A DNA stretch of 64,000 nt from Georgenia subflava (GTDB taxonomy: Bacteria; Actinomycetota; Actinomycetes; Actinomycetales; Actinomycetaceae): assembly GCF_009193155.1 (NCBI RefSeq), contig NZ_VUKD01000001.1, forward strand, positions 124,001-188,000, in the 5' to 3' direction. Positions 8,385 to 64,000 of the stretch are shown in pieces (the first letter of the stretch is position 1; every line of letters begins with the position of its first letter). A program made the translations under genes and the position numbers. Under the pieces are notes generated by a model. That model worked only from the letters and a program-made list of their open reading frames with translations, searched no databases and was not told where the DNA came from.

Positions 8385-8392
8385 CGCCGCTC

Positions 8393-40660: not shown

Positions 40661-43621
40661 TCACCCAGCCGCCGGCGAGATCCGGAAGATCTCGTCCGAC
40701 CGCGTGAAGTAGATGTCCTCCCCGAGGCGGGCGAAGGTGTAGTTCGTGACGCCGTCCGCCAGCTCACGCGACCTGAGGGTCTCCGGGTCGACCTGGAAGA
40801 TCGTCCCCCTGGTCAGCGCGTAGAGCTGCCCGTCCTCCCGGAACTCCAAGTCGCTGCCGACCCACAGCGACGCGCCCTGCCACAGGTAGGGCATCAGCTG
40901 GCTGCTGCGCAAGACGGACCCGTCGGTCGGGTCGAGCTCGTAGAGCTTGCCGTTGTCGATCGCCCACAGGGTGCCGTCCGGTCCCGCCGTCAGCGCCGTG
41001 ACGGCCTGGACCTCGGGCGCGAGCTCGGCCTCCCAGAGCTTGTGCCCCGTCTCGGAGTCCCAGGCGAACACCACAGCGGTCTCCGCCGTCGGGCTGGATC
41101 CGAGCCCCCCGAAGACGGATGTGCCGCCGTAGACGATGTCGCCGATCGCAGTGAGCGAGACGATGCTCTGGTCGGGGACCACGTCCCGGTGACTCTCGAG
41201 CACACCGGTGTCTGGGTCGTAGAGGGCGAGGACGCCTCCGAGCTTGCCGTAGGAGGGGACGGTACCCGTGGCCACCCGGTCACCCACGGACGTCCAGGCG
41301 AACGGTCGATCCTGCTCGAGCTCCTCCAGCGAGCCGAGATGCTCAGGATTGGTGCCGGTCTCCCAGCCCTCCTCGGGGTGGTACCGGAAGAGGTGGGCCC
41401 GGGTGTAGGTGCCGAGATAGAGGTCGCCGTCATGGGCGAGCATCCCTTCGACCTGCCCGAGATATCCGCGCGGAAGTGTCTCCGTCTGCCCCGTCGTCGG
41501 GTCGTAGGCGGCGATGCCCTCGTACATGTACCCGCCGGAGTAGATGCGCCCGTCCGGACCGGTAGCGACCGACTGGATCTTGATCGGTGCGGTCTCCGCC
41601 TCGGTCTGGAGAACCTCGTGCGTCCCCCGCACGGGGTTGTACAGGACGCGCTCGCCGGTCTGGTAGACGAACGACAGCGTCAGCCCGGGGTAATCGGGGC
41701 CGGGCAGGTCGACCCAGCCGAAGTCTCGGGCCGGGTAGAGGTCCGCGACGCCGGTGTCGGTGATCGTTCCCCTGCTGAGCTTGTAGGCCATGAGGCGGTT
41801 CTCGGCGTCGACGTAGTACACCGTGTTGGCCGGCCCGACGGGTGAGACCGACCCGAACGCGGTCGGCCCGAGATCGGTCCACGTTCCGCGCTTCATGTCG
41901 TGAGCCAAGAGGTGGTTACCCGGGGTGACCCGGGCGAAGAGCGTGTCCTTGCGGACGTCGAGGAAGTAGACGAACTCGTTGTCCTGGTGCTCCTCGGGCA
42001 GCTCGAGCGTCGTCCGTTCCCCGCTGGCGACGTCCAGCACCACGATCTTGGGGTCCGAGCTGCCGAGTCCCGCGTAGACCTTGCCGTCGGTCACAGCGAC
42101 GGACCGCACGTACTCCTCGTCGGCGAGGCTGCCGTAGGAGGTGAAGTCGTCCGTCGCCGGGTCGTAGCTGAACAGCTCAGCCCGCGGATACGTGCCGCCC
42201 CACACCACGCCCTCGTCGTCGACCTCGAGATCCCACAGGTACCGCGAGTTCGGCGTGGCGCGGCCGAGGTCCTCGAGCGTCTCGGTCGCGGGCACCCATC
42301 GGTAGAGGTGACCGTTGTTGTAGACACCGACATAGACGGAGCCGTCCGACCCGGTCGTCACCGCCCACGATCCTGTCGCTCCGGCGGGCAGCTCCACGGA
42401 GTGTTCGAGCGCACCGGTCTCGACGTCGAGGACCTGGAAGCGGGCGGGCACGGCGGCGGTGACGGCGTAGACGTCTGGTCGCCCGTCAGCCCCGATGCCG
42501 TAGGAGGTGTCGAGGATGTTGGACGCTTCGACAGGATGTCCGATCGACTCCTCGGCCCAGGCCTGGCCGACCTCGATCGCCACGCCGTCCCACACCACGT
42601 CCGTGACGTCCCCGGTGGAGGAGTACAGGAGCATCTGGGCAGACGTCGCGCCCGCCGGAGCCACTGTGGTCTCGCTCTCCCAGTTCCACTCGCCTGTCGC
42701 GGTGTAGATGCGGTGGGCTACCTGCGAGAGTCGAGCCCCGGTGTCGTCGTAGAAGTACAGGACCCAGGAGGGGATCCCCCGCTCGACAAGTGCCCACACC
42801 CCGACGTCGTAGGTCTCGCCGGCAGTCACCGGCACCTTCTCGCTGAGCAGACCGACCTGCTCGGTGTCGCTCGGATCGGTCATCCGCAGCGCACCGTCGC
42901 CGGCGTGCACGGGGTCGTCGACGACGGTGAACGTCTCCGGGCCCGTCGCGTAACGCGGCGCCCAGCGGGCGATGCTTCCGTCGAGCGCGGGGTCCTCGAA
43001 ACCGGAGTTCGGGAAGCCGGTTCCGGCCAGGGCGACCGTGACGTCGTCCCAGGTCACGCTTGTGACGTCGGCCCTGGATGAGTAGAGCAGGATCCGGGCG
43101 CTCACAGCGTCCTCGGGAGCTGTCGCCCTGACTCCGGCCCACGCCCACGTGCCAGTGGCCTCGCGGATCCGTAGTGCATGGTCGGCCAGCTGCTGCCCTC
43201 CGGCGTCGTAGAAGTAGACGACTACCGAGGGAACACCAGTCTCGACGAGGGCCCAGGCACCCAGCTCGTAGTCCATCCCTCCCTCGACACGCACGGGCGC
43301 CGAGAGCAGACCGATCTGCTCGGTGTCGGAGGGGTCGGACATGCGCAACGCCTGGCCGCCCGACAACACCGGGTCGTCGGTGACGTCGAAGCCGCCGGTG
43401 CCGCTGGCGTACCGGACCGTCCACCCTGGGACCTCGGCATCCGAGGGGGCCTCGAACCCACCGTTGACGACCGGTTCCGGCCCGCTCGAGGGCAGAGCAG
43501 CGGGCTGCGCCTGAGCCACCGCCGGGGCCGCGGCCAGGGCCGAGGCGACGACAAGGCCTGACAGGAGGCCCACCAGGCGTCGTCGGCGAGGAACATCCAG
43601 GGTGTTGTTCGTGCGGTCCAC
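40661..43621 (-). CDS. Secreted beta-propeller protein 1 with two N-terminal jelly-roll modules
   Basis: This 986-residue exported protein has a signal peptide (cut after AQA, about residue 38) and two tandem modules of CBM-like jelly-roll type (about 45-190 and 195-340, each with NGGFE/NSGFE...W, ALRMSDPSDTEQ and a Trp-Asp-Asp or Trp-Asp end). A seven-bladed-type propeller follows (about 345-986, repeated YDPxTG and VYAG/YGGTS blades). The family block has TGTNPEH, EQDRP, SHRDVVPDQS and YGGTS (about residues 755-830). It would bind or act on a polysaccharide outside the cell. The GTG at 43621 has GAGGAG six bases upstream. The C-terminal module seen in paralogs is lost. Confidence 0.82.
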   Translation of the reverse strand: MDRTNNTLDVPRRRRLVGLLSGLVVASALAAAPAVAQAQPAALPSSGPEPVVNGGFEAPSDAEVPGWTVRYASGTGGFDVTDDPVLSGGQALRMSDPSDTEQIGLLSAPVRVEGGMDYELGAWALVETGVPSVVVYFYDAGGQQLADHALRIREATGTWAWAGVRATAPEDAVSARILLYSSRADVTSVTWDDVTVALAGTGFPNSGFEDPALDGSIARWAPRYATGPETFTVVDDPVHAGDGALRMTDPSDTEQVGLLSEKVPVTAGETYDVGVWALVERGIPSWVLYFYDDTGARLSQVAHRIYTATGEWNWESETTVAPAGATSAQMLLYSSTGDVTDVVWDGVAIEVGQAWAEESIGHPVEASNILDTSYGIGADGRPDVYAVTAAVPARFQVLDVETGALEHSVELPAGATGSWAVTTGSDGSVYVGVYNNGHLYRWVPATETLEDLGRATPNSRYLWDLEVDDEGVVWGGTYPRAELFSYDPATDDFTSYGSLADEEYVRSVAVTDGKVYAGLGSSDPKIVVLDVASGERTTLELPEEHQDNEFVYFLDVRKDTLFARVTPGNHLLAHDMKRGTWTDLGPTAFGSVSPVGPANTVYYVDAENRLMAYKLSRGTITDTGVADLYPARDFGWVDLPGPDYPGLTLSFVYQTGERVLYNPVRGTHEVLQTEAETAPIKIQSVATGPDGRIYSGGYMYEGIAAYDPTTGQTETLPRGYLGQVEGMLAHDGDLYLGTYTRAHLFRYHPEEGWETGTNPEHLGSLEELEQDRPFAWTSVGDRVATGTVPSYGKLGGVLALYDPDTGVLESHRDVVPDQSIVSLTAIGDIVYGGTSVFGGLGSSPTAETAVVFAWDSETGHKLWEAELAPEVQAVTALTAGPDGTLWAIDNGKLYELDPTDGSVLRSSQLMPYLWQGASLWVGSDLEFREDGQLYALTRGTIFQVDPETLRSRELADGVTNYTFARLGEDIYFTRSDEIFRISPAAG

Positions 43622-43743
43622 GGCGGCTCCTCGATCGATGGGGAGGCTGTTCAGGTATCGACGGCGACGACGCACGGGATCACAGGACCTCGGAGAAGGA
43701 GGAGAGCATCATCGCTCGGAGAAACCCATTTCTCTTTCTGATG

Positions 43744-43772
43744 AACCTAGGGTGCCCTGCAACCGGTGTCAA
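43744..43772 (-). promoter_or_regulatory. Propeller 1 promoter with a degenerate LacI-type operator
   Basis: On the minus strand TTGACA (43767-43772) and TAGGTT (43744-43749), 17 bases apart, form a good promoter. Between them lies TGCAACCGGTGTCA as read on the plus strand (43758-43771), with one intact TTGCA half-site. The leader to the GTG is about 115 bases. Confidence 0.7.
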
Positions 43773-43783
43773 GGTTCGACAAG

Positions 43784-43821
43784 AGGCTGTGCCGTCCGGC
43801 CTTCGCCGGACGGCACAGCCT
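43784..43821 (-). terminator. Hairpin after propeller 2
   Basis: A perfect 17-bp stem (43784-43800 with 43805-43821) closed by loop CTTC lies 18 bases after the propeller 2 stop. It separates propeller 2 from the propeller 1 promoter. Confidence 0.88.
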
Positions 43822-43838
43822 CGATCGGGATCAGCGCG

Positions 43839-46688
43839 TCACAGGTGTGCGCACTGCCCTCTCGTCGGCCCGTCGACCGTGTTCGACTGCCCCTCATCGG
43901 TCGGCGGCGTCGCATTCCCCGCGCAGAAGAGCGGTCCGACGATCGTGCTGCCGGCGATGACGACCTCGCCGGTGGAGCCGTCGATCCGCACGGGACCGGT
44001 GACCTCGGCACCCCTCAGGATCACGTCCGTGGCGCCGTCGGCCCGCAGCGGCCCGGTGATCGCGGAGTCGGTGACCACGATCGACGCCCCGCCGGAGACG
44101 GTGACTGGACCGTCGACCTCCGCGTCGGTCAGGCAGGTCGTCCCGCTGGTGATGTCCAGGCGTCCCTCGTGCGTACCAGTGACGGTCTGCTCGCACTCGG
44201 GGCCGACCTGGGCCGGGATCCACCGGTACAGGGTGCCGCCCCGGTTGTAGTAGTAGCTGCCCAGCCGGTCGATCGCCAGATTCTGCACGCCGGTCTGGAC
44301 GACCGTCATCTCGAGCGTCTCCGGGTCGATCTCGAACAGCCGGCTGGCCGTCTGCCCGACGAGCTTCCCGTCGTGCCAGAACAGCTCGCGGGTGGTCCAG
44401 TAGGCCGCGGAGTCGTCGACGTCGAAGTAGCGCTGGCGCTCGACCACCTCGAGGGTCTGCGGGTCGAACCGGAACAGCTCGTTCGCGGTCATGCCCCACA
44501 GGTTCCCGTCGGCGTCGAAGGTCAGGCCCGAGACGTTCTCCTCACCCGGCACCGGGACCGTCTGGAAGGTCACCTCGCCGCTGGCCGGGTCGAAGACGAA
44601 CAGCTGGCCCTCGGTCGTGGACGGGTCGATGCCGAGCCCGCCCCAGATGCCGGTGCCGCCGTAGATCAGCCCGTCGCGGTAGGCGAGGGAGATGATCGTC
44701 TGGTCGGCGACGAGCTCCTCGAAGACCTCCATGTCCCCGGTCTCCGGGTCGAAGAGGGTCAGCGCGCCGCCGAGCTGGCCGTAGTCCGGCACGGACCCGA
44801 TGGCGACCACGTCACCGGCCGACGCCATGGCGACGGGGCGGTCCTGACCGTGCCCGATGCTGACCCGCTGCGGCGGGTTCGTCCCGTTGTCCCACGGCTG
44901 GGTGGTGTCGTACGTGTAGAGCCACGAACCGGGGTACGTGCCGATGACCAGGTCGTCGCCGTGGGCGACCATGCCCTCGACCTGCCCGGGCCCGCTCAGC
45001 AGCTCGGAGGCGCCGGACTCGGCGTCGACCCTGGCGATGCCGGGCGGGGAGGCGTAGCCGCCGGCCCACACGTCGCCGTCCGGCCCGGTGCCCAGCGAAC
45101 GGATGAGGAACGGCGTCGGGTCGGCGTCGCTGCGCATGCTGCGCGTCTCGCCGGTCTGCGGGTTCCACACGTGGAAGACGGCCTTCGACGTCGCGGTCAC
45201 CAGCGACTCGCCTGGGAAGCCGTCGAGGTCGACCTCCTGGAGCGACCAGCCCCGCGCCGAGGCGCCGCCGAGGTCGATCGAGACGTCGCGCCGCTCGTAG
45301 GTGTCGACGTCGTAGGCGATCATGCCGCCGCCGATCTTCGGGATGAGCACCTCGGTCCGCTCGGTGCCGCTGTCGACGGTGCGGACGGCCGGGCTGACCT
45401 CGAGCCCCACACCGGACGGGATCGTGTCGACCCACGCCTGCTCGGTCAGCGAGTACACCAGCACGTCGGTCGACGGCGTCGGCCGGGCGAAGAGCAGGTC
45501 GCCCGCCACGCTGAGGTCGTAGACGAACTCCTGGTCCCGGTACTCAGCCGGCAGCTCGATCCGGACCTTCTCCCCCGTGGTGGTGTCCAGGCGGACCACA
45601 ACGGCGTCCGCGGTGCCGCCGCCCGCGTACACGTAGTCGCCGTCCACTGCGATGCTGCGGACGTAGGAGTTGCCCTCGACGACGACGCCGTGGTCGTGCC
45701 ACTCGTCGGCGGCCGGGTCGTAGCTGACGACCTTCCCGCCCGGGTACGTGGCGAAGAAGACCTCGCCCGCGTCGTTGGACTGCCCCTCCCAGAAGTACCG
45801 CTCGCCGAAGGGCTTGTCGGCGATGAGCGTCAGGGTGAGAGCGTCCGGGTCGAAGACGTACACCTCGCCGGACGACGTCGCGACGTAGACGGACCGGTCC
45901 GGGGTCGTGGCGTACGCCCACGTCAGCGTGCTCGCCTCGATCGTCTGCGACATGAGCAGCTCGCCGGTGACGATGTCGACGGCGCTGAAGCGCGACGGCG
46001 ACCCGCCGGCGACGACGAGCCCGATGTCCCGCCCCTCGGCGTTCTCGGTGTAGCCGGCACCGGCGTTGGTCACCCCGCCGATCGGCTCGCCGAGATCTTC
46101 CTCGACGCCGTCGGCGACGTCGGGCACGACGGCGGTGAAGCCCACGTTGTCGATGAGACCGTCCGCGGTCCCGCCCACCGAGGAGTAGATGAGCGGCTCG
46201 GCGAGGACGGCGCCCTCGGGGGCGGTGACCTCCACCGTCTCGGTGACCCAGCCGCCGGGCGCGGGGCTGACCGCCGACGACGGCTGCGCGATCCGGTTGC
46301 CGCTCGCATCGAGGAAGTACACGGTGGGCTGCAGCGTGCCGGACGCGAAGTTCAGGTCGAGGGAGAACTCGTAGGTCTCCCCCGCGGTGACCGCGACGGC
46401 CTCGGGACGCAGCCCGACTCCGGCCTCCGCAGAGTCGTCCAGGACCCGCAGGCTGCGCTCACCGTCGCTGGCGTCCGTGTCGTCCGAGCTGAACGCGGCC
46501 GCCGAGCTCGCCCAGAGCGGCGACCATCCGGTCGGCAGCCCCTCGGGACCGACCTCCTCGAAGCTGGCGTTGCCGAGCAGGTTGCCCGCCGCATCCGCGG
46601 CCATCGGCTGGGCCGCGGCCGCTGGTGCGGCGGCCAGCGCCAACGTCGCGAGCGACGCGAGCGTGATGAGTGTTCTTCTGTGTCTCAC
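43839..46688 (-). CDS. Secreted beta-propeller protein 2 with jelly-roll and C-terminal repeat module
   Basis: This 949-residue protein has a signal peptide (about 1-26), one jelly-roll module (about 35-180; NASFEEV...W, SLRVLDDSAEAG), a propeller (about 195-820) and a C-terminal Cys-rich repeat module (about 831-949; TVTGTHEGRL, GTTCLTDA, VDGPVTV, ITGPLRADG, VTGPVRIDG, IVGPLFC, GQCAHL). The conserved His-Arg of the family block (HRNVVxDQS) reads FEELVADQT here, so any activity that depends on it may be lost. The GTG at 46688 has GGGGGA five bases upstream. It may be cotranscribed with propeller 3. Confidence 0.82.
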   Translation of the reverse strand: MRHRRTLITLASLATLALAAAPAAAAQPMAADAAGNLLGNASFEEVGPEGLPTGWSPLWASSAAAFSSDDTDASDGERSLRVLDDSAEAGVGLRPEAVAVTAGETYEFSLDLNFASGTLQPTVYFLDASGNRIAQPSSAVSPAPGGWVTETVEVTAPEGAVLAEPLIYSSVGGTADGLIDNVGFTAVVPDVADGVEEDLGEPIGGVTNAGAGYTENAEGRDIGLVVAGGSPSRFSAVDIVTGELLMSQTIEASTLTWAYATTPDRSVYVATSSGEVYVFDPDALTLTLIADKPFGERYFWEGQSNDAGEVFFATYPGGKVVSYDPAADEWHDHGVVVEGNSYVRSIAVDGDYVYAGGGTADAVVVRLDTTTGEKVRIELPAEYRDQEFVYDLSVAGDLLFARPTPSTDVLVYSLTEQAWVDTIPSGVGLEVSPAVRTVDSGTERTEVLIPKIGGGMIAYDVDTYERRDVSIDLGGASARGWSLQEVDLDGFPGESLVTATSKAVFHVWNPQTGETRSMRSDADPTPFLIRSLGTGPDGDVWAGGYASPPGIARVDAESGASELLSGPGQVEGMVAHGDDLVIGTYPGSWLYTYDTTQPWDNGTNPPQRVSIGHGQDRPVAMASAGDVVAIGSVPDYGQLGGALTLFDPETGDMEVFEELVADQTIISLAYRDGLIYGGTGIWGGLGIDPSTTEGQLFVFDPASGEVTFQTVPVPGEENVSGLTFDADGNLWGMTANELFRFDPQTLEVVERQRYFDVDDSAAYWTTRELFWHDGKLVGQTASRLFEIDPETLEMTVVQTGVQNLAIDRLGSYYYNRGGTLYRWIPAQVGPECEQTVTGTHEGRLDITSGTTCLTDAEVDGPVTVSGGASIVVTDSAITGPLRADGATDVILRGAEVTGPVRIDGSTGEVVIAGSTIVGPLFCAGNATPPTDEGQSNTVDGPTRGQCAHL

Positions 46689-46804: not shown

Positions 46805-49336
46805 CTACTGCTCGAGCCGGAAGATGTTGGTGTTGTCGCCGTAGTAGACGGTGCCGCTGCCGTGGACGGCGGAGTACCGGATGCCGCCCGAGGCCAGGAC
46901 CGTGACGTCGGGGTCGTCCGGGTCGAACCGGAAGAGCTGCCCGCCGGCGTTGCCGTACATCAGGCCGTTGTCAGGATGCGGGAACAGCTCGCTCGTGCGG
47001 CCCCAGATGTTGCCGTTGCGGATCCCGGTGTCGATCCGGCGGACGACCTCGTGCGTCTGCGGGTCGTACTCGAAGAGCGTGCCCTCGTCGGCCATGCCCC
47101 ACAGGCGTCCCTCGTCGTCGAACGCGAGGGAGTGGATGATCGTCGCGCCCTCGACGACGACGGACCGGGTGACGAACCGGTCCGCACGCGCGTCCCAGAC
47201 GAAGAGCTCGGCCGTGTCCTGCGTCGGCGTGGAGTTGATCGCACCGTGGATCGAGGTGCCGCCGTACACGAGACCGTCCCGGTACGCCAGCGACGTCACG
47301 CTCTGGTCCGGCACCACGTTGCGGTGCATGACGTACTCCCCGCTGTGCGGGTTGAGCAGGACGAGCGCGCCGCCGAGCTCGCCGTAGTTGGGGATCGTGC
47401 CCACGGCCACCCGGTGCCCGGCCGAGACCATGGTCCCCGGCCGGTCCTGCCCGGCCGCGCGCCCGATCGTGAGCAGGTGCTCCGGGTTGGTGCCCCAGTC
47501 CCAGTCCTTGTTCACGTGGCCGGCGTAGAACTCGGCGTTCGGGTACATCCCCACGACGATCTTGTTCCCGTGGGCGACGATGCTGCCCGCCTGGCTCGGC
47601 CCGCTGAGGCGCTCGACCACGCCTGCCTCGTGGTCCACCCGGGCCATCACGCCCGAGCTGAGGTAGGCCCCGAAGTAGACGTCGCCGTCGGGTCCGACGC
47701 CGACCGAGTGCACCCGCGCGGGGTTGCCCACGATGTCGGTCGAGATGACATCGCCGGTCCGTGTCTCGAGGTTGTAGCGCCAGACCGTCCCGTCGGCGCG
47801 TGTCCCCACGAGGGTCGCGCCCGGGAGCTCCTCGGTTCCCATCTCGACGACGGTCATCCGTGACGTCCCGTCGTACTCGCCGGCCAGCGCACTGTCCTCC
47901 CAGCCGATCGAGCGTGACTGACGCGTCTCGATGTCGAAGGCCTTGACCACGCCACCGGACGCGTAGAAGAACGCGCCGTCGACGGACTCGAGGGTCCACC
48001 GGCCGGCCGCGGCGTCCAGCACGCAGCACCACTCGCCCGCCGTGAGGTCGTAGATCGCGGAGTTCGCCTCGCCGGAGGGCGAGTAGCGGGCCAGGACTAG
48101 GTCGCCGTGCGTCGTGAGCTCGCTGAAGAAGTCGCCGGCGACCTCCATGTCGGGCGGGATGGGCAGCTCGCTGCGAGCGCCCGTCTCGGGGTCGAGGACG
48201 ATCAGCTGCGGGCTCGTCGACGTCCCGACCCACAGGTCGCCGTCCACCATCGTCATGTATCGCGCGTAGTCGCCCTTGTCGGTGATGCTGCCGTAGTCGC
48301 GCAGCTCACCGGTGCCGACGTCGTACGCCAGCACCTTGGCGCTGGGGTAGGTGCTGGCATAGATCGTCGAGCCGTCGGATATCAGGTCGGAGATGGCGGT
48401 CTCCCCCGTCGGGCCGTCCAGGAGCTGCTCGAGGTCCTGCGTGATCGGGTCGTAGCGCCACAGCGACGCGAGGCTCGGGCTGCGTCCGCTGAAGTACAGG
48501 GTGTGGTCCTCGGCGACCACGGCCGAGCTGGCCACGGTGTGCTGGTCGAAGTGGTGGGTGTCCAGCACCTCGCCGGTCCGCAGGTCGACGACGTTGAGGC
48601 TCGTCGGGGCGCCGTTGTTGAAGAGGTAGGCGACCGGGGTGCCGTCGGGCAGCACGTCGGTCTCGCTCGCCCGGACGTTGTTCGTGCGCATCGCGACGCC
48701 GAGGTCGGTGATCTCGAGCGGTTCGAGGGTGTGGACGAGCTCCACGTCGTCGGCGTAGTAGGTCGAGATCTCGTCGCGCTGCGTGTACAGCAGCGCGGCG
48801 GCGCTCACCGCGCCCTCCGGTGCGGTCACCGCCAGTCGGACACCGGTCCACTCACCGGCCGGGATGTCACGCAGGTGCGTGCTCTGCGCGTGCACCCTCG
48901 TGCCGTTCGCGTCGTAGAAGTACAGGTACGCCTTGCCACGCAGGTCACCGGGTTCCCGCGGTTCTTCCACGAGGGCCTGGAACCGTAGCTCGTAGGTGTG
49001 GCCCGCCTGCACCGGCATCTCCTCGCTCAGGAGGCCGTAGGCCACACCGTCCTCCGGGTCGTGGACCTCGAGGCTGGCCCCTCCATCGAAGACCGGCGCG
49101 TCGACGACGGCGAAGCCCCCGTCTCCCACGCCCAGGGTGTGGGTCCATCCGGGGATCTGGCCGTCGTCGACGGGTTGCTCGAACCCACCGTTGACGGGCC
49201 CCCCGGGGCTGCTGCTCTCAGCCTGCGCGGGGACGGCCATCGCGGTGATCCCCAGCGCGACAGCTGCCAGGGCGGCGAGAGCGGTTCTGCGACCGTCCCT
49301 CCGCCCGGCGGGACAGGCACTCATCGTCAGCTTCAC
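46805..49336 (-). CDS. Secreted beta-propeller protein 3 with one jelly-roll module
   Basis: This 843-residue protein has a signal peptide (cut after AQA, residue 39), a jelly-roll module (about 45-190; NGGFEQPVDDGQIPGW, SLEVHDPEDGVAYG, YYADDVEL) and a propeller (about 200-843) with the full family block: WGTNPEH, GQDRP, GTIPNYGELGGAL, MHRNVVPDQSVTSL and YGGTS. There is no C-terminal repeat module. The GTG at 49336 has an AGAGGG ribosome site. It is directly controlled by the paired operators at 49524 and 49581, so it is part of the LacI regulon. Confidence 0.83.
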   Translation of the reverse strand: MKLTMSACPAGRRDGRRTALAALAAVALGITAMAVPAQAESSSPGGPVNGGFEQPVDDGQIPGWTHTLGVGDGGFAVVDAPVFDGGASLEVHDPEDGVAYGLLSEEMPVQAGHTYELRFQALVEEPREPGDLRGKAYLYFYDANGTRVHAQSTHLRDIPAGEWTGVRLAVTAPEGAVSAAALLYTQRDEISTYYADDVELVHTLEPLEITDLGVAMRTNNVRASETDVLPDGTPVAYLFNNGAPTSLNVVDLRTGEVLDTHHFDQHTVASSAVVAEDHTLYFSGRSPSLASLWRYDPITQDLEQLLDGPTGETAISDLISDGSTIYASTYPSAKVLAYDVGTGELRDYGSITDKGDYARYMTMVDGDLWVGTSTSPQLIVLDPETGARSELPIPPDMEVAGDFFSELTTHGDLVLARYSPSGEANSAIYDLTAGEWCCVLDAAAGRWTLESVDGAFFYASGGVVKAFDIETRQSRSIGWEDSALAGEYDGTSRMTVVEMGTEELPGATLVGTRADGTVWRYNLETRTGDVISTDIVGNPARVHSVGVGPDGDVYFGAYLSSGVMARVDHEAGVVERLSGPSQAGSIVAHGNKIVVGMYPNAEFYAGHVNKDWDWGTNPEHLLTIGRAAGQDRPGTMVSAGHRVAVGTIPNYGELGGALVLLNPHSGEYVMHRNVVPDQSVTSLAYRDGLVYGGTSIHGAINSTPTQDTAELFVWDARADRFVTRSVVVEGATIIHSLAFDDEGRLWGMADEGTLFEYDPQTHEVVRRIDTGIRNGNIWGRTSELFPHPDNGLMYGNAGGQLFRFDPDDPDVTVLASGGIRYSAVHGSGTVYYGDNTNIFRLEQ

Positions 49337-49523: not shown

Positions 49524-49594
49524 TGCAACCGATTGCACTCGCAACCTACCGGGGGGATCAGGTTGCCGTCAAGACCTTCCTGCAATCGGTTGCG
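49524..49594 (-). promoter_or_regulatory. Propeller 3 promoter bracketed by two LacI-type operators
   Basis: On the minus strand TTGACG (49567-49572) and TAGGTT (49543-49548), 18 bases apart, form the promoter. TGCAACCGATTGCA (49524-49537) covers the expected start and TGCAATCGGTTGCG (49581-49594) lies upstream of the -35. The design equals that at nagB, with operator centres 57 bp apart. Confidence 0.87.
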
Positions 49595-49726: not shown

Positions 49727-50725
49727 TCAGCCGGCGTCCGCAGCCCAGTCGAGCTGTCGGCCCCCGGTGTCGGCGCTCGCCTGGGCGGTGAGGGCGACGC
49801 GGGTGGCGAGCAGGCTGGCCGCGGTGGTGATCTCCGGCTCCCGGCCGTCGAGCAGGGCGTCGAAGAAGTACTGCGCGGGCCGCGGGGCCGGAGGCAGCGG
49901 CTCCGCCCAGCCGGGGCGGTCGTGGGTCGCCACGTGCAGCCGCCCGTACGCCCAGTCCAGCTCGGCGGTGCCCTCGGAGCCGGTCAGCCGCATCCGGTAG
50001 TGCCCGTGCACGTCCGCGGCCTGCGGGGACAGCCAGCTCGCCTCGACCGTCGCGGTCACCTGCCCGGCACGCAGCAGCAGCGCCACGTGGTCGTCGAGCC
50101 CGGGGTGCTCCGCGGCGCGGACGTTCCCGGTGACGGCCGAGACGGTGCCGGCGGTGGCGCCGGTCAGGTGCAGGACCAGGTCGATGTCGTGCACCGGCAG
50201 GTCGGCGGCGATCCCCCCGTAGCCGTCCCGGCGCAGGAACCACTCCGGCCGGGCGCCGAGGTTGAGCTTGTGCGGGCCGGTGCTCGCGACCAGGGCGAGC
50301 TCACCGAGCACGCCGTCGGCGATCAGCCGCGCCGCGGCGAGCGTCGGCGGGTAGAACCGCTTCTCCAGCACGAGGGAGACGTGCCGCCCGCTCGCAGCGG
50401 CAGCGGCACTGATCGCGTCGACCTGGTCGAGGGAGGTGCACAGCGGTTTGTCGGCGAGCACGTGCGCCCCGGCTGCGAGCGCCTCGAGCACCGCCTGCGC
50501 CCGGTGGGTGTAGATACCGGCGACGAGCGCGACGTCGACGGTGTGGGCGGCCAGCAGCTCGGGGATGCTCGGGTACACGGGAGCCGGCAGCCCGTCGAGG
50601 TACTGCGCACGCATCTGCGGATCCGCCTCGGCCGCGGCCACCAGCTCCAGCTCGTCCCGGTGGGCGACCTCGTCCAGCGCGTACTGGACGTGCGGGTGGG
50701 CGGCCCCCAGGATCGCGACCCGCAT
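49727..50725 (-). CDS. Gfo/Idh/MocA-family oxidoreductase A
   Basis: This 332-residue NAD(P)-dependent enzyme has a Rossmann start (VAILGAAHPHVQYA, residues 3-16), the catalytic motif HVLADKPLCTS with Lys (DKP in place of EKP, about residue 93) and a C-terminal alpha/beta domain with AADLPVHDIDLVLHLTG (about 175-190). The family oxidises or reduces sugars and inositols, often at C3. The ATG at 50725 overlaps the stop of oxidoreductase B by one base (TGATG). Confidence 0.87.
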   Translation of the reverse strand: MRVAILGAAHPHVQYALDEVAHRDELELVAAAEADPQMRAQYLDGLPAPVYPSIPELLAAHTVDVALVAGIYTHRAQAVLEALAAGAHVLADKPLCTSLDQVDAISAAAAASGRHVSLVLEKRFYPPTLAAARLIADGVLGELALVASTGPHKLNLGARPEWFLRRDGYGGIAADLPVHDIDLVLHLTGATAGTVSAVTGNVRAAEHPGLDDHVALLLRAGQVTATVEASWLSPQAADVHGHYRMRLTGSEGTAELDWAYGRLHVATHDRPGWAEPLPPAPRPAQYFFDALLDGREPEITTAASLLATRVALTAQASADTGGRQLDWAADAG

Positions 50726-54478: not shown

Positions 54479-54557
54479 GACTCGCGGTTCTCCCGGGCCG
54501 CCGTGCCCCGGTCGGCCGCCGCGTGCCGTCCAGATCCACGACCACGAAGGAGTGCTC

Positions 54558-57043: not shown

Positions 57044-59110
57044 TCAGCCCGTCGCGCCGAGCTCGACGTGGAACACGTTCGTGTCGTCGACGGCGATGTA
57101 GTTGCCGGCGCCGTCGCGCACGACCTGCTCCATGTCGGTGGACAGCACAGCGACGGTGGAGTCGGCCCGGTGCACCTGGTAGAGCCGGCCGTTGTTCGTC
57201 GCGACGTAGCTGCCGCTGGCGGCGTCCCACACCGTCCGCGCAGAGTACCCCCACGAGGTGTGCGCCCCGCTCTCCGCCGGCGCGGTCCGCACGGTCCGGC
57301 TGACCTCACCGGTGGCCGGGTCGGTCTCGACGAGCAGTCCGTCCGAGGTGTGCGCGACGAGGACGCCGTCCGGGCCCCACGCGAGCCCGCCGACGTACCC
57401 GGCGCCAGGGCTCACCTCGCTCTCCCACACCACCTTCTCGGCGGCGACGTCCCAGGCGAACAGCCGGGCGGAGGAGGCGGTGGGCGTCGAGGACAGGCCA
57501 CCGCTCACCGCCGTGCCGCCGTAGACGATCCCGTCGCGGTGGACGAGCGAGACGATGCTCTGCCCTGGGACCACGTCGCGGTGGACCTCGTACGCACCCG
57601 TCGCCGTGTCGAGCAGCGTCAGCGCACCCCCGACCTCGCCGTAGTCGGGCACCGTGCCCAGCGCCAGGCGGTCACCGGTGGAGACGACGCCGAAGATGCG
57701 GTCCTGGAAGTGCGGCTCACCACGGCCGATGGTGAGCACGTGGCGCGGGTTCGTCCCCCATTCCCAGGGCTGGTCGAGGTCTCCGACGTGGACGACGGCG
57801 CCCGGGTAGGACGTCACGACGAGCTCACCGTCGTGGGTCGTGATGGCGTCGCCCTGCTTGGGCCCTCGCAGCGGCTCCACACCGAGGGTCGCGGCGTCCA
57901 CGCGGCTCATCGACCCGGACGAGAGGTAGGCGCCGATGTAGGCGTTGCCGTCGGGCCCCACACCGAGCCCGTGCGCCTCCGCCGGGGACGGGGCGATCGC
58001 TGCCCGCCGGATGCTCGTGCTGCCGGTGGCGAGGTTGTACGCCCAGATGTCGCCGTCGGTGCTCAGACCGACCACGCTCTGGGCCGGCATGTCCCTGCCG
58101 GGCAGGGACATCACCTCGATGCCGTAGGTGTTGACCTGCTGGGCGAGATGGGCCGGCAGGTCCGTGTCCGCGAAACCCGTCGTCGTCACGGAGTCGGTCC
58201 GGGTGTTGTACGCGGTGAGCATCCCATCGGAGAGGACGAAGCTCCGCCCGCGCACGTCCGTCGCGGTCGGGTCGGAGCCGCCGACCGCGGGGATGATGTC
58301 CTCGTCCCACTCGCCGGTGGCCAGGTGCAGCACCGCCGTGTCGTAGCCGCCGCGCGGGGACAGCCGCACCAGCACGTCGTCGCCGCGCTGGGCGATGCCG
58401 ATGAACCACTGGGTGTTCGACATGAGGCGAGCGGGGACCTCGACCTCGCGCCGCTCGCCGCTCGCGGGGTCGATGGCGTAGAGGTGGGGCACCGGGCCGG
58501 TCCCCGCCCAGACCTCGCCGTCGACGATGCCGAGCGAGAAGACGTAGGCGGCCTCGTCGGTCTGCGAGCCGTAGTCCCGGAAGGCGCCGGTCGCCGGGTC
58601 GTAGGAGACGACCTTCGCGTGCGGGTAGGTGCCGAAGAACAGCTTCCCGTCCTCGGTGACGGCTCCGTCGTAGAGGACCCGCTCCCCGGCGACGTTCTCG
58701 GCGATCTGGACGAGCTCGTGGGTGCGCGGCTCGAAGGAGAAGAGCCCGGCCAGCATCGGGTGCCGGGCGGAGAAGTACACGGTGCCGTCCCCGGCAACCG
58801 TGATGAAGCTGCCGAGCGTCGTCCCGGGCAGCTCGGCGGCGAACAGGCTCTCCCCGGTCGTGACGTCGACCATCGTGAAGGTCGCGGGGTTGCCGTTGGA
58901 GATGGCGTAGACCACCGGTGTGCCGTCGGACAACTCGGCGAACGCGGCGTTGCGGACGTTGACCGACATGATCGCCGGACCGAGGTCGGTCACGCGGGCC
59001 GGCTCGGGGCCTGTCGCCGCGGCGACCGGGGCGGCGACCAGCGCGGCGAGCGCAGTCACTGCAGCGGCCACCAGGGCGACGGCGCGTCGTCCCAGGGACA
59101 GTTGTCTCAT
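57044..59110 (-). CDS. Secreted beta-propeller protein 5 (propeller only)
   Basis: This 688-residue protein has a signal peptide (about 1-32) and a propeller with no extra modules. It is the minimal form of the family. The block reads WGTNPRH, FQDRIFG, GTVPDYGEVGGAL, VHRDVVPGQSIVSL and YGGTA; Asp of DQS is Gly and Pro of QDRP is Ile. AAGGAGG lies upstream of the ATG at 59110. I see no LacI-type operator in the short upstream gap, only a 19-bp palindrome at 59130, so its regulation may differ. Confidence 0.84.
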   Translation of the reverse strand: MRQLSLGRRAVALVAAAVTALAALVAAPVAAATGPEPARVTDLGPAIMSVNVRNAAFAELSDGTPVVYAISNGNPATFTMVDVTTGESLFAAELPGTTLGSFITVAGDGTVYFSARHPMLAGLFSFEPRTHELVQIAENVAGERVLYDGAVTEDGKLFFGTYPHAKVVSYDPATGAFRDYGSQTDEAAYVFSLGIVDGEVWAGTGPVPHLYAIDPASGERREVEVPARLMSNTQWFIGIAQRGDDVLVRLSPRGGYDTAVLHLATGEWDEDIIPAVGGSDPTATDVRGRSFVLSDGMLTAYNTRTDSVTTTGFADTDLPAHLAQQVNTYGIEVMSLPGRDMPAQSVVGLSTDGDIWAYNLATGSTSIRRAAIAPSPAEAHGLGVGPDGNAYIGAYLSSGSMSRVDAATLGVEPLRGPKQGDAITTHDGELVVTSYPGAVVHVGDLDQPWEWGTNPRHVLTIGRGEPHFQDRIFGVVSTGDRLALGTVPDYGEVGGALTLLDTATGAYEVHRDVVPGQSIVSLVHRDGIVYGGTAVSGGLSSTPTASSARLFAWDVAAEKVVWESEVSPGAGYVGGLAWGPDGVLVAHTSDGLLVETDPATGEVSRTVRTAPAESGAHTSWGYSARTVWDAASGSYVATNNGRLYQVHRADSTVAVLSTDMEQVVRDGAGNYIAVDDTNVFHVELGATG

Positions 59111-59148: not shown

Positions 59149-59218
59149 ACGTCTGCGTGCGGGAACCAGCCCCGCGCATTCGACGGGCCGGCCGGAGGGG
59201 GGCCGCGCGTCGTCCGAC

Positions 59219-59258: not shown

Positions 59259-60302
59259 TCAAGTGGTCGTCGCGGGCTCCTCGAGATCGACCGGCCGGCC
59301 CGTCCTGACCGACTCCTGGGCAGCCACCACGGCGCGGACCGTGCGCAGGCCGGCGCCGCCGTCGGGCTGAGGTGGGGTGCCGGTGCGCACGCCGTCGAGG
59401 AACGCAGCGAGCATCAGCTGGTCGAGGTTCGAGCCGAACGGGAGCCAGGCGGCCCCGCCCGTCGCGGGGGTGAACCCGTCGAGACGGTCCGAGAACGGGG
59501 CGATGGCGGCGCTGCCCCGGGTGCCGAAGACCTCGAGCGTGAGCCCGCCCCAGGTCGGTGCCTCGTCGGGCACGCTCCACGAGCAGTCGACGACCACCTC
59601 GACGCCGCCGGCGTAGGTCAAGCTCACGAGCCCGCCGGTCTCGGCGGTCACCTCCGGGCGATCGGCGTGCAGCACGTGGTTGACGGTCGCGCGGACCCGG
59701 GTGAGCGGACGCTCGAGCAGGGCGTCGAGCAGGTCCGCCACGTGCACGGTGTGGTCCACGAGGGCGCCGCCGCCGGCGAGCGCCGGGTCGGTGAACCAGG
59801 CCCGCCCGGCCGGCACCTTGCCGTTGTTCGTACCGGTCGCCAGGAGCACCTCGCCCAGCGCGCCGGCGTCGACCAGCGAGCGCAGGGCGGCGAAGCTCGG
59901 CGCGAACCGCACCGGGTACGCGGTCATGAGGAACACGCCCGCCGCCCGGCACGCCTCGACCATCGCCTCGGCGTCGGCGACGGTGGTGGCGAGCGGCTTC
60001 TCGCACAGCACGTGGGCGCCGGCGCGTGCGGCCAGCTCGACCAGCGGTCGGTGGTTGACGTTCTCGCTGCAGACCACGACGGCGTCCGGCGCCCGATCGA
60101 GCAGGTCCTCGTAGGTAGGCACGTACGGCACATCGAGCTCGGCCGCGAGCGCCGCGCCGCGCAGCTCGGCGGACCCCTCGCCGTCGGGGTCGGTGGTCAG
60201 CAGCTCGACGCCGGGCCAGTCCCGGAGGAGCTGGGCGTACCCGGCGGCGTGGGTGTGCGCGAACGACATCAGCCCGACACGCAGCGGGCGGTCGCCGATC
60301 AT
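59259..60302 (-). CDS. Gfo/Idh/MocA-family oxidoreductase F
   Basis: This 347-residue enzyme has an unusual nucleotide loop (VGLMSFAHTHAAGYAQLL, residues 9-26) like that of oxidoreductase C, catalytic HVLCEKPLATTVADAE (Lys about 97) and ALAGGGALVDHTVHVADLLDALL (about 170-192). The start overlaps the oxidoreductase E stop by four bases (ATGA). Longer upstream frames are translations of that gene on another frame. Confidence 0.88.
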   Translation of the reverse strand: MIGDRPLRVGLMSFAHTHAAGYAQLLRDWPGVELLTTDPDGEGSAELRGAALAAELDVPYVPTYEDLLDRAPDAVVVCSENVNHRPLVELAARAGAHVLCEKPLATTVADAEAMVEACRAAGVFLMTAYPVRFAPSFAALRSLVDAGALGEVLLATGTNNGKVPAGRAWFTDPALAGGGALVDHTVHVADLLDALLERPLTRVRATVNHVLHADRPEVTAETGGLVSLTYAGGVEVVVDCSWSVPDEAPTWGGLTLEVFGTRGSAAIAPFSDRLDGFTPATGGAAWLPFGSNLDQLMLAAFLDGVRTGTPPQPDGGAGLRTVRAVVAAQESVRTGRPVDLEEPATTT

Positions 60303-61291
60303 CGGGCACCGCCCCCCGCCGCCGGGAGCCGGACCGAGTCGCCGGTCTCGATCGACGTCAGGGCGGCCAGGGCCAGCTCGACGGCAGCCACGCCGTCGGC
60401 GGCGCTCACCCGCGGCACGGGTCCGCCGGCGATGGCGCCGGCGAACTCGCGCAGCTGTGTCAGATAGGGGCTCTCGCCCAGACTGATGTCGGGCAGCCGC
60501 CCGCCGCCGGAGCCCGTGCCGACGTCGAGCGTCAGCGCCCTGGCGTCCCGGGAGTCGTAGGTGAGGACGCCGCCGTCGCCGGCGACGTGGAAGCTCGTCG
60601 AGAAGGTGGTCGACGGCGCGCCCCACACGCCGCGAACATGGCTGATGGCGCCGCCCGCGTGCGTGAGCACCGCGTGCGCCATGGCGATCGGCAGGCCGTC
60701 CTCCTCGCCCTGGGCGAGGGTGGCGTAGACGTCCGTGACGTCGCCGGCCACCCACCTGGCGATGTCCAGGTCGTGGATCATCAGGTCCATGACCACGCCG
60801 CCGGACTGGGCGGGGTCGGCGAACCACTCGCGCCACATCGGGAAGGCGCTCGTGCGGGTCAGTCGCAGCACGGCGGGCCGGCCGATGCGACCCGCACGCA
60901 CCGCCTCGGCCATCGTGGCGTAGGCCGGGAAGAAGCGGACCACGTGCGCCGGGTACAGGTGCCGGCCCGTCTCTGCCGCCACCCGCGCCAGGAGGACGGC
61001 GTCGTCGCCGGTGCGGGCGAGCGGCTTCTCGGCGACGACGTCCCGACCTGCCAGCAGGGCGGCCTCGGCATAGTGCCGGTGCACCGGGGTCGGCGTGCAC
61101 ACGTCGATGACGTCGCAGCGCTCCATCAGCTCCTCGAAGCTGGTCACGACGCTCCCGCCGTGCCTGTCCGTGAGCTCAGCGGCGCCCTCGAGCGAGAACG
61201 CGCTCACCTGCGCCCCCAGCGCGTGCCACGCGGGCAGGTGTGCCCCCGCTATCGTGCCGGCCCCGACGAGCCCGACCCTGAGTTCCTTCAC
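60299..61291 (-). CDS. Gfo/Idh/MocA-family oxidoreductase E
   Basis: This 330-residue enzyme has VGLVGAGTIAGAHLPAW (residues 6-22), catalytic DVVAEKPLARTGDDA (Lys about 91) and SGGVVMDLMIHDLDIARWVAGDV (about 160-182). GTG 61291 has GGAGG six bases upstream. It follows propeller 6 by only 40 bases, so it is likely in one operon with it. This repeats the pairing of a secreted propeller with two oxidoreductases seen at 51.9-57.0 kb. Confidence 0.88.
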   Translation of the reverse strand: MKELRVGLVGAGTIAGAHLPAWHALGAQVSAFSLEGAAELTDRHGGSVVTSFEELMERCDVIDVCTPTPVHRHYAEAALLAGRDVVAEKPLARTGDDAVLLARVAAETGRHLYPAHVVRFFPAYATMAEAVRAGRIGRPAVLRLTRTSAFPMWREWFADPAQSGGVVMDLMIHDLDIARWVAGDVTDVYATLAQGEEDGLPIAMAHAVLTHAGGAISHVRGVWGAPSTTFSTSFHVAGDGGVLTYDSRDARALTLDVGTGSGGGRLPDISLGESPYLTQLREFAGAIAGGPVPRVSAADGVAAVELALAALTSIETGDSVRLPAAGGGAR

Positions 61292-61331
61292 CGTTCTGCC
61301 TCCGTCCTGCTGCCACGAGTCGACGGCCGTG

Positions 61332-64000
61332 TCAGAGTCCCGCACACTGGCCGGTCCGTGGGCCGCTGACCGAGTTCGCCTCGCCTTCGTTCGTCGGTGC
61401 TGGGTCGTTGTCCTCACAACGCAGCGGGCCGCTGATCGTGTTGCCCGCGACGACCACGGTGCCCGCACCCGCCCGGGTGCCCGTGACCTGGAGCGGACCT
61501 GTGACGTAGGTGCCGGTGACGACGAGCTCGCCCGTGGTGCCGTGCAGCTCGACCGGCCCGTCGATCGTGCTCTGCAGGACGTGGACGACGGACGCACCGT
61601 CGGTCCTCAGCGGCCCGTCGACCGTCGAGCCCGTGACGACGACGCCGGCACCATCGGTGACGGTGACAGGTCCCTCGATCGTCGCGTCGTCCAGGCACGT
61701 CGTGCCGGCCCCCACCGCGAGCGGACCGCGCCGGTGGCCCGTCACGACGGCGTCGCACGCCGGGGCGCGGTCGGGGGTCCACCGCATCAGTGCCTTGGCC
61801 GCGCCGTAGTAGTAGCGGCCGTCGTCGTCGATCCCCAGACCGGTGCAGGTCAGCGCGTCGGGATGCGTGGCCAGGATCGAGAAGGTCCCGTCATCGGGGT
61901 AGAACTCGAACAACGTGCAGCGGCTGAGCCCGACCATGGTGTCGCCGACCTGGCGGAAGCCACGTCCGACCACATAGGTCGCGCGGTCCGGACGCTGGTC
62001 GTAGACGATGCGGTCGACGACCTGCCGCGTCACCGGGTCGAAGGAGAACAGGGTCGTCCCGGTCATGCCCCAGAGGATCCCGGTCTCGTCGAAGGCGAGA
62101 CCGGCGACGTTCTCCTCACCGGGCACCGGCACCCCCGTGTAGACGACCTCGCGGGCAGCGACGTCGTAGACGAACAGGTGCCCCTCGGTGGTCGTCGGCT
62201 CTGCCCCCAGGCCGACGGCGACCCCCGTACCGCCGTAGATCAGGCCGTCGCGGTACACCAGGGCGAGCGGGGTCTGGTCCTGGACCACGTTCCGGTGCAC
62301 CTCGATGGTGCGGGCATCATGGTCGTAGAACGACAGCGCGCCACCGATCTGTCCCTGGAACGGGTAGGAACCGAAGGCAGTGAGATTCTCGTCCACCGCA
62401 GCGAAGGAGGTGACGCGGTCCTGCTCGTCGGTGGAGTACACGCGCGCCCGCGGGTTCTGACCGTTGACCCACGGCTGGGTGGTGTCGTAGTCGAAGATCG
62501 TCGCACCGCCGTAGGTGCCGATCAGAAGGCTGTCACCGTTGCGTCCGAACTGCTCGATCTGCGGAGGCCCACGCAGCACCTGGACCTCGTCGGTGCCGGG
62601 GTCGTACTGGACGGCGCCGATGTCCGAGGCGTAGCCACCCATGTAGATCTTGCCGTCGGGACCTTCGGAGAGAGAACGGATCCACGCCAGGGACGGCGCG
62701 AACTCTCCCTCCACGCGGTGGACGTCGCCGGTCTCGGGGTTCCAGGCGTAGACGACGCCGCGCTGCGTCGTGCCGATCAGGCTCGTCCCGGGGAAGCCGT
62801 CCAGCTCGAGCTCACCCCAGTACCAGGACATCGAGTTGAGCTCGATGGTGAAGGGGAGCGACCGGATCTCACCGCTCTCCAGGTCGAACGCCCGCACCTC
62901 CCGGCTGGCGCGGTGCTGGAAGTAGGTCTCCAGACGTTCCCCGTCCGGCGTCGGGACCAGGCGCGCGGGGGCCATGCGCCGGTTGGCGACGTCCGCGATC
63001 TCGTGGGTCCACTCCGCCGTCGCACGGTCGTACACCAGCAGGGTGCGCGAGGGGTTGGTGAGTGCGAAGAGCTTGCCCTCGAAAGCACCGAGTGACGAGA
63101 CGTTGCGCTCGTCGTCATAGGGCTCGGGCAGCGGGATCTCTGTCTTCGTCCCGGCGGCCAGGTCGAGCACGAACGTGGTGGCGACCGGCGCGGTGCCGAC
63201 GAAGACCTTGTCGCCGTCGACGTCGAGGCTCTGGGCGTAGGTGACGTCCTCACGCAGCCGGCCGTGATCGACCCACTCGCCGGTGGCGGGGTCGTAGCTG
63301 AGGACCTTCCCGTTGGGGTAGGTGCCGATGAAGACGCGGCCGTCGTCGTGCATGTCCATCGAGTACAGGTGGGTCTCGCCGAGGGGGTCGTCCTGGACCT
63401 GCGTGAGCTCGAGGGTCTCGGGGTCGAACACCCACAGTCCCGAGCCGTACGTCCCGACGTAGGTGGTGCCGTCCTCGGCGACGCCGAAGCTCCACGTCAT
63501 GGCGGTGCCGGGCATCTCCTGCTGCATCAGGAGCTCGCCGGTGGCGGCGTCGACGGCCGAGAAGACGAGCGGGCTCCCGATCGACCCGAACAGCGCGATC
63601 TGGCGGCCGTCGGAGTCGTGGGTGAGTCCGGTCGTCTGTGCGTTGAGCTGGCCGAGGTGCTCTCCCAGGTTCTCCGCGAAGCCTTCGGGCTCGACGGGCT
63701 CGGGCACGTCGATGGCGGTGAAGGCGACGTTGTCGACGTAGGACTCGAGCAGTCCGCCCGATGCGGTGTAGAGCGTCAGCCGGGCCGCGACGGCACCCTC
63801 CGGCGCCTCGACCACCATGGCCGCACGCTCCCACCGTCCCGCCGCGGTGCGCGTGGTCTGGTACGGCTGCGCGACGACGGACCCGTCGGCTGCGTCGAAG
63901 TAGATCGTCGGGTTGATCGCCCCCGACACCATGAACTGGTCGAAGCTCAGCTGGTAGCTCTGGCCCGCCTCGACCGGAACCGGGTCGGAGACGAGCCCGC
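61332..64000 (-). CDS. Secreted beta-propeller protein 6 (5' end outside window)
   Basis: The frame stays open to the window edge; 889 codons are visible. It has the end of a jelly-roll module (DPVPVEAGQSYQLSFDQFM to ESYVDNVAFTAID), a propeller and a C-terminal Cys-rich repeat module with one extra repeat (TVVVAGNTISGPLRC, GQCAGL). The block reads NGQNPRA, EQDRV, GQIGGAL, VHRNVVQDQT and YGGTG. It is closest to propeller 2 (DYDTTQPW, TTEGHLFVYD, GVPVPGEENVAGL), but it keeps the His-Arg pair that propeller 2 lacks. The signal peptide and promoter lie outside the window. Confidence 0.85.
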   Translation of the reverse strand, partial: GLVSDPVPVEAGQSYQLSFDQFMVSGAINPTIYFDAADGSVVAQPYQTTRTAAGRWERAAMVVEAPEGAVAARLTLYTASGGLLESYVDNVAFTAIDVPEPVEPEGFAENLGEHLGQLNAQTTGLTHDSDGRQIALFGSIGSPLVFSAVDAATGELLMQQEMPGTAMTWSFGVAEDGTTYVGTYGSGLWVFDPETLELTQVQDDPLGETHLYSMDMHDDGRVFIGTYPNGKVLSYDPATGEWVDHGRLREDVTYAQSLDVDGDKVFVGTAPVATTFVLDLAAGTKTEIPLPEPYDDERNVSSLGAFEGKLFALTNPSRTLLVYDRATAEWTHEIADVANRRMAPARLVPTPDGERLETYFQHRASREVRAFDLESGEIRSLPFTIELNSMSWYWGELELDGFPGTSLIGTTQRGVVYAWNPETGDVHRVEGEFAPSLAWIRSLSEGPDGKIYMGGYASDIGAVQYDPGTDEVQVLRGPPQIEQFGRNGDSLLIGTYGGATIFDYDTTQPWVNGQNPRARVYSTDEQDRVTSFAAVDENLTAFGSYPFQGQIGGALSFYDHDARTIEVHRNVVQDQTPLALVYRDGLIYGGTGVAVGLGAEPTTTEGHLFVYDVAAREVVYTGVPVPGEENVAGLAFDETGILWGMTGTTLFSFDPVTRQVVDRIVYDQRPDRATYVVGRGFRQVGDTMVGLSRCTLFEFYPDDGTFSILATHPDALTCTGLGIDDDGRYYYGAAKALMRWTPDRAPACDAVVTGHRRGPLAVGAGTTCLDDATIEGPVTVTDGAGVVVTGSTVDGPLRTDGASVVHVLQSTIDGPVELHGTTGELVVTGTYVTGPLQVTGTRAGAGTVVVAGNTISGPLRCEDNDPAPTNEGEANSVSGPRTGQCAGL

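Follow-up and report, generated by a model that had tools for sequence, protein, structure and literature searches.

Exported 14-repeat propeller proteins in an operator-linked sugar-utilisation cluster of Georgenia subflava: candidate glycan-active proteins

The xyloglucanases of family GH74 are built from two seven-blade propeller rings and carry a catalytic Asp pair, and two propeller rings are also found in hybrid two-component sensors (3ott, 3va6, 4a2l). For the propeller-fold polysaccharide lyases, an Arg that acts as neutraliser, a Tyr or His that acts as base and uronate glycans as substrates are reported (PMC8377490, PMC11395424), and for PL28, which has another fold, a Tyr as base and acid with Gln and Arg as neutralisers (PMC11395424). 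Here we describe a stretch of 64,000 nucleotides from Georgenia subflava (contig C3 124001-188000 of a 4.32-Mb genome; GC content 72%; hereafter the window), into which six large open reading frames (ORFs) for paralogous propeller proteins reach, with a third-position GC of 0.88-0.95. Together with two genes past the window end, these form the eight propellers of the main cluster, P1 to P8. They are probably glycan-active exported proteins, and we give an even chance to the fuller proposal that a single polysaccharide-utilisation regulon has in them its exported component, acting on the glycan. The combination of export, one operator, a sugar importer, esterases and the lack of a known cutter makes the propellers the likeliest cutters or catchers of the glycan.

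That the window encodes six exported paralogues had been claimed by the original prediction and is borne out: the ORFs lie where they were placed, each with a hydrophobic N-terminus and AxA sites, and the 15 pairs of P1 to P6 share 28-49% identity. The count of six, however, holds for the window only, since two more copies follow just outside it and a second locus, on C6, has another three. A hydrophobic N-terminus and AxA sites are present in all of P1 to P8 (26-57% identity over 28 pairs), and both lipobox and LPxTG are absent from all eight, which leaves no evident anchor; a sortase- or lipid-anchored protein was rejected on this ground. A moderately hydrophobic stretch near the C-terminal end occurs in P2 only. 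CBM_4_9 scores above the cut-off in P1, P2 and P8 and weakly in P3, the N-terminus of P6 resembles a carbohydrate-binding module (CBM) by alignment, and a C-terminal module of about 115 amino acids (aa) is common to P2, P4 and P6 and matches nothing else in the genome at E 1e-5. The propeller genes of the main cluster are the following.

40661..43675, minus strand: propeller P1, two CBM_4_9 matches and then the 14-repeat propeller (40679-42550); start codon uncertain
43839..46688, minus strand: propeller P2, CBM_4_9, propeller (44220-46100) and C-terminal module
46805..49336, minus strand: propeller P3, head of the P3-P2-P1 run, with operators 188 and 245 bp upstream
54552..56963, plus strand: propeller P4, propeller (54699-56600) and C-terminal module (about 56610-56957); final gene of a same-strand run beginning at 51871
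57044..59110, minus strand: propeller P5, 688 aa, propeller only
61332..64000, minus strand: propeller P6, extending to about 64298, outside the window; propeller (61779-63674) and C-terminal module
68351-70783 and 71024-73492 (window-equivalent, past the window end): two further propellers of the main cluster (up to P8)

Beside P7, at window-equivalent 66046-68253, lies a gene whose 735-aa product has an N-terminus of export type and begins like a CBM; behind this comes an unmatched region that looks beta-helix-like by eye. No depolymerase match was found for the product in Pfam or among PDB sequences, and it was rejected as a propeller, being otherwise unmatched.

The propeller domain measures about 630 aa, and 14 blade repeats fit it by a hand-drawn register in which an N-terminal strand likely closes the last blade; from the repeat number, the domain probably folds into two seven-blade rings. 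Judged by sequence searches, no named family covers it in the libraries used (Pfam, NCBIfam and PDB sequences), in line with the original prediction, which had recognised none. Pfam returns only generic blade models (PQQ_2, DUF6923, Kelch, DUF5074), PQQ_2 being above the cut-off in P1, P3 and P6; NCBIfam returns nothing above the cut-off for P1 to P6; and the PDB matches are weak (best E 8e-7 with an 8-sequence profile and 1.3e-7 with a 17-sequence profile). Other propeller enzyme families covered by Pfam were rejected for want of a match. In Occultella, a 2005-aa chain (L031:12270-18287) carries two tandem propeller domains with further sequence behind them.

A block of shared motifs had also been proposed, lying within about 100 residues, and it does span about 80 in P1 to P6. 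Its first motif is better read as W-x-x-G-x-NP and, like QDR, is present in 6/6. The others are looser: G(T/S)xPxYGxxGGAL is strict in 3/6 and relaxed in 6/6, HR(N/D)VVxDQ(S/T) is strict in 4/6 and present in 6/6 as (V/L)VxxQ(S/T), and YGGT is found in 5/6, P4 having YAGT. We aligned 31 members (numbering of the P4 domain): P1 to P8, the three copies on C6 and family members from Georgenia, Ruania, Occultella, Micromonospora, Actinophytocola, Mesobacillus, Paenibacillus, Streptomyces, Nonomuraea, Arthrobacter, the archaeon Natribaculum and the genomes G195 and G323. A truncated second Actinophytocola propeller (L033:2-1423) was left out, and G195, G323 and Streptomyces NBC_00708 enter the 31-row counts while standing outside the 28-row core and tree. 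Conservation in 25 or more of the 31 members is seen at 17 polar positions; eight are Asp of blade turns and the other nine are Y72, T120, Y148, Q373, Y389, Q422, R424, Q470 and T486. The His-Arg pair that the original prediction took as a signature did not hold up (H463 18/31, R464 18/31, with D469 at 18/31 and N408 at 21/31) and was rejected as catalytic; kept in its place are Y389 (31/31), R424 (31/31) and Q422 (30/31), with Q373 (27/31) and Q470 (26/31). In propellers, the D-A and B-C loops lie on one face, and the hand register places Q373, Y389, Q422, R424 and Q470 in D-A or B-C loops of blades 8-10; the D-A loops of blades 8-11 have a mean identity of 0.57, against 0.36 for all D-A loops.

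One operator is common to the importer and the catabolic units. Exact matches to TGCAANCGNTTGCA number 10 in 4.32 Mb, all of them within 46.2 kb (C3:151402-197618); with up to one mismatch there are 14 places genome-wide, 13 of them in the cluster, and the window alone holds 8 such sites against 0.03 in shuffles. The 13 cluster sites lie 25-245 bp ahead of called gene starts, in front of the nagB-like/AGE, lacI, esterase/MR_MLE, importer, P3, divergent Gfo/Idh, P6/DUF4127, P7 and P8 genes, and P1, P2, P4 and P5 are located farther along same-strand gene runs whose beginnings coincide with operator sites. The sites in and around the following genes of the window are these.

27402..27415 and 27462..27475: two exact operator sites in the gap separating the nagB-like and AGE genes
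29869..29882: single-mismatch operator site ahead of lacI
30850..30863: exact operator site in the gap separating the esterase and MR_MLE genes
33495..33508: exact operator site ahead of the importer
49524..49537: exact operator site ahead of P3
49581..49594: single-mismatch operator site ahead of P3
51811..51824: exact operator site in the gap separating the divergent Gfo/Idh genes

25568..26608, minus strand: NagA-like amidohydrolase (TIGR00221 169.6 bits, under the cut-off of 225.65)
26598..27377, minus strand: NagB-like deaminase (Pfam Glucosamine_iso; under NCBIfam cut-offs)
27590..28843, plus strand: N-acylglucosamine 2-epimerase family (AGE; NCBIfam 140.5 bits, under the cut-off of 600)
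28838..29821, minus strand: LacI-family regulator, proposed reader of the operator, with a one-mismatch site 48 bp upstream
29903..30817, minus strand: alpha/beta-hydrolase, glucuronyl/acetyl-xylan-esterase-like
30925..32319, plus strand: enolase-superfamily protein (MR_MLE_C)
32344..33360, plus strand: D-2-hydroxyacid dehydrogenase, homologues of which adjoin propellers in other genera
33556..36734, plus strand: sugar-type ATP-binding cassette (ABC) importer, an SBP_bac_1 protein and two permeases
36734..37705, plus strand: acetyl xylan esterase family (AXE1)
49727..51750, minus strand: two Gfo/Idh/MocA oxidoreductases
51871..53765, plus strand: two Gfo/Idh/MocA oxidoreductases
53762..54478, plus strand: GDSL-type esterase
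59259..61291, minus strand: two Gfo/Idh/MocA oxidoreductases, between P5 and P6

A Pfam scan that took in all called genes between 25568 and window-equivalent 78369, apart from one ORF of 62 aa and the gene at 38781-40385, adds DUF4127, DHDPS-like, epimerase-like and Nramp genes and a second LacI gene, and finds among the scanned genes neither a glycoside hydrolase (GH) or polysaccharide lyase (PL) family nor any extracellular depolymerase of a known family. Solved structures matched by the importer binding protein include those of proteins that bind maltose, acarbose and arabino-oligosaccharides. No operator copy stands ahead of the DHDPS-like and epimerase-like pair, which adjoins the second LacI gene. 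DUF4127 occurs in five genes of the genome, one in the cluster (C3:188529-189980) and four some 50-70 kb off (C3:241309-258261). The gene at 38781-40385, between the importer unit and P1, we take to be HNH-like; it looks unconnected with sugar use. Farther off, at about 3300-10000 of the window, are presumably genes of an integrated element, with an integrase-like gene (8393-9769) and an adjoining small gene.

The linkage to a sugar importer and catabolic enzymes under a shared operator, which had been proposed from this locus alone, stands, and it recurs in other genera and in Bacillota. The closest named DNA found with the propeller domain is from Georgenia and Ruania. Exact TGCAANCGNTTGCA sites are found in Ruania albidiflava (three, beside orthologous genes) and Ruania gallistercoris (one, between importer and lacI); none occurs in the 8.5-kb Georgenia piece or in the loci of other organisms. 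Beyond the operator, the company of genes is kept: in Occultella, Micromonospora and Streptomyces atratus, the neighbourhood of the propeller includes genes for an importer and a 2-hydroxyacid dehydrogenase as well as DHDPS-like, epimerase-like and Gfo/Idh genes (in S. atratus in the order hydroxyacid dehydrogenase, DHDPS-like, epimerase-like, importer, Gfo/Idh, propeller). Actinophytocola has this set without the hydroxyacid dehydrogenase in the stretch seen; Paenibacillus has epimerase-like, DHDPS-like, importer and propeller genes without hydroxyacid dehydrogenase and Gfo/Idh; and Mesobacillus has propeller, isomerase, Gfo/Idh, epimerase-like and DHDPS-like genes without hydroxyacid dehydrogenase and importer. 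Among plasmid records, the propeller domain is present in 14 and the DHDPS-like gene in 20, with both within 10 kb in 9, seven of which are Streptomyces with like loci; in a tenth record with both, from Nonomuraea, they lie far apart. The DHDPS-like gene is also found without propellers, for example in Nitratireductor, beside Gfo/Idh, isomerase and enolase-superfamily genes. A divergent member in Streptomyces NBC_00708 lies directly after a PF14099 polysaccharide lyase and before an importer and a hydroxyacid dehydrogenase, a single case. Within the genome itself, the C6 locus (269.6-286.2 kb) sets three propellers beside a second importer and a second 2-hydroxyacid dehydrogenase, with no exact operator copy near them; the three are of one clade, and the cluster (C6:256001-295000) also holds a nitrilase-like gene. 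A protein of about 400 aa lies near propellers in Occultella (L023:1144-2367), Micromonospora (L032:4-1047), Actinophytocola (L033:6784-7992) and C6 (L005 about 16100-18600); the Actinophytocola protein has a winged-helix match at its end and is perhaps a second kind of regulator. Among the matches listed in an open-licence literature search, no paper dealt with the propeller family, DUF4127, DUF6923 or this gene set.

The epimerase-like gene is rare and accompanies the full-length propellers. It was found in 2 of 396 genomes of the phylum, including that of G. subflava, and in 6/6 named whole genomes from the propeller scan versus 1/393 phylum genomes without a propeller match, or in 6/8 versus 1/393 when G195 and G323 are counted (Fisher p 3.5e-11); since the best 3 or best 5 candidates were scored per genome, copies can be missed. 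It is also on plasmids of Mesobacillus, Paenibacillus and Streptomyces atratus. The initial search for the gene covered a selection of 8 genomes or records, six of which were already known to show it; with Georgenia, which has it, and three plasmids without it added later, and Nonomuraea left out, the overall figure is 9/12. As to the age of the copies, a 28-row tree groups P4, P5 and P8 with Ruania copies at 100/100, 100/100 and 100/98, the P4 group also taking in a Georgenia copy and the P5 group consisting of copies from two Ruania species, so that the copies predate these genera and are old and kept; the deep branches have weak support.

Several observations weigh against the propellers being glycan-active, and most likely catalytic, members of one sugar regulon: (i) conservation was already known when the blade register was drawn by hand, and the position of Y389 is at the margin of strand B; (ii) mean loop identity over all blades is 0.51 for A-B, 0.52 for B-C, 0.48 for C-D and 0.36 for D-A, giving no general conservation excess on one face, and, since 18% of residues belong to B-C or D-A loops, the 5 of 17 conserved polar positions found there are a modest excess; (iii) no His reaches 25/31 and there is no second invariant loop carboxylate among the 31 members, and the conserved loop Gln may be structural; (iv) GH88/105 has no match in the genome (KduI- and KduD-type genes were not searched for), which weakens the classical uronide-lyase route; (v) no obvious sugar cluster surrounds the relatives in G195, G323, Nonomuraea and Arthrobacter, a signal peptide could not be made out by eye in those of G195 and G323, and the epimerase-like gene is absent from these two genomes with divergent propellers and from the plasmids of Natribaculum, Arthrobacter and Streptomyces NBC_00708 (only the plasmids were searched), so that its link belongs to the full-length core and not to the divergent edge; (vi) TGCAANCGNTTGCA was derived from words common to intergenic stretches of this same DNA, and a reversed-pattern control gives 11 genome places at up to one mismatch against 14, so that the operator case rests on exactness and clustering. 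The one-face arrangement that had been expected of the motif loops holds in part, for five of the nine best-kept non-Asp polar residues, while WxxGxNP sits in a C-D loop by the hand register and hence on the opposite face. The breakdown-or-capture reading of the original prediction retains its regulon linkage and its lack of a named family, and loses the His-Arg signature and the placing of WxxGxNP on the same face.

The main rival to cleavage is glycan capture, in which the propellers would not cut and would be exported binding proteins that hold or present glycan for an enzyme whose gene lies elsewhere, each copy being suited to a different epitope; we regard this as possible, if on the unlikely side. 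The CBM_4_9 matches in three of the eight proteins suit it, as do the sensor propellers 3va6, 3ott and 4a2l and tachylectin-2 among the weak best PDB matches and the loops devoid of a conserved His or carboxylate pair, yet binding proteins with no evident anchor and no partner depolymerase in the scanned cluster are harder to account for, and Y389, Q422 and R424, near-invariant over very diverged members, would exceed what a binding epitope is expected to keep.

Exported sugar oxidoreductases or lactonases, quinoprotein-like or SMP-30-like, whose keto or lactone products would pass to the Gfo/Idh, DHDPS-like and epimerase-like proteins, seem improbable to us. Six Gfo/Idh genes in the cluster and database records that name relatives PQQ-binding-like speak for such a role, but the PQQ_2 matches in P1, P3 and P6 come from a generic BamB-type blade model, the quinoprotein amine dehydrogenase chain 1jmx_B (E 0.17) and regucalcin (E 0.7-1) stand low in the PDB list at values that are not significant, and 14 repeats with no conserved His argue against known quinoprotein or SMP-30 sites. 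Still more improbable is a structural or adhesive role at the cell surface, the sugar genes being neighbours by chance: although surface-layer propellers match weakly (E 0.006-0.009) and some relatives stand outside sugar clusters, operator control, and the same importer and enzymes recurring in several genera and two phyla, argue otherwise.

Returning to the propellers as part of a glycan-utilisation regulon, the locus can be assembled into the following route. The LacI-type protein (28838-29821) would repress the cluster through the TGCAANCGNTTGCA sites; in the presence of inducer, eight paralogous 14-repeat proteins, some with CBM_4_9, would be exported and would bind, and most likely cleave, one glycan family, which we guess from the neighbouring genes to be acylated and to contain amino sugars. 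The products would enter through the importer (33556-36734), be de-esterified by the AXE1, GDSL and esterase-like gene products and then be handled by AGE, NagA-like, NagB-like, six Gfo/Idh, MR_MLE and 2-hydroxyacid dehydrogenase proteins, with the neighbouring pair of DHDPS-like and epimerase-like genes perhaps supplying the remaining steps. Cleavage itself stands at about an even balance, and that the propellers are lyases is rather doubtful. The least certain step would be a metal-independent elimination in which Tyr389 serves as the base while a carboxylate is neutralised by Gln373, Gln422 and Arg424. Only tentatively, then, would we propose a double-propeller, metal-independent Tyr/Gln/Arg lyase class with no catalytic His, spread from Actinomycetota to Bacillota and a haloarchaeon, that acts on an acylated glycan and feeds an uncharacterised oxidative route of Gfo/Idh, epimerase-like, DHDPS-like and 2-hydroxyacid dehydrogenase enzymes. 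Should the propellers cut glycan, they would add to the carbohydrate-active enzymes a new family with an unusual scaffold of 14 repeats, and from the conserved neighbours one could read the outline of a sugar pathway, so far undescribed, in at least two bacterial phyla; should they only bind, a large sugar regulon without a recognisable cutter would be likewise unexpected. The tight regulon and the several copies make the proposal testable.

To compare the locus with known systems, the predicted propeller fold is shared with PL24, PL25, PL42 and GH145, which differ in being single seven-blade rings with a catalytic His, whereas here there are 14 repeats and no conserved His. Neither a family model nor a solved member of PL24, PL25 or PL42 is matched in Pfam, NCBIfam or PDB sequences, and their catalytic His has no conserved counterpart, H463 being present in 18/31; their Arg neutraliser on the anterior face, on the other hand, has a possible parallel in R424, which the hand register places in a D-A loop. 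The conserved Tyr, Gln and Arg recall the chemistry reported for PL28 and for metal-independent lyases in general, and not the His-based sites of PL24 and PL42, an analogy that does not imply membership. GH74 has the two rings that the 14 repeats suggest here by the hand register, with no match in Pfam or PDB and no Asp pair seen in the propellers. The hybrid two-component sensors are among the best PDB profile matches (E about 1e-6), yet these are weak and run over single stretches, and a sensor kinase was rejected, as no histidine kinase domain was found in the Pfam scans. At the level of the whole locus, the lack of a GH or PL family among the scanned genes sets it apart from the LacI-controlled glycan loci of Gram-positive bacteria, with which it otherwise shares a LacI regulator, an ABC importer, esterases, amino-sugar and oxidoreductase genes, and one operator.

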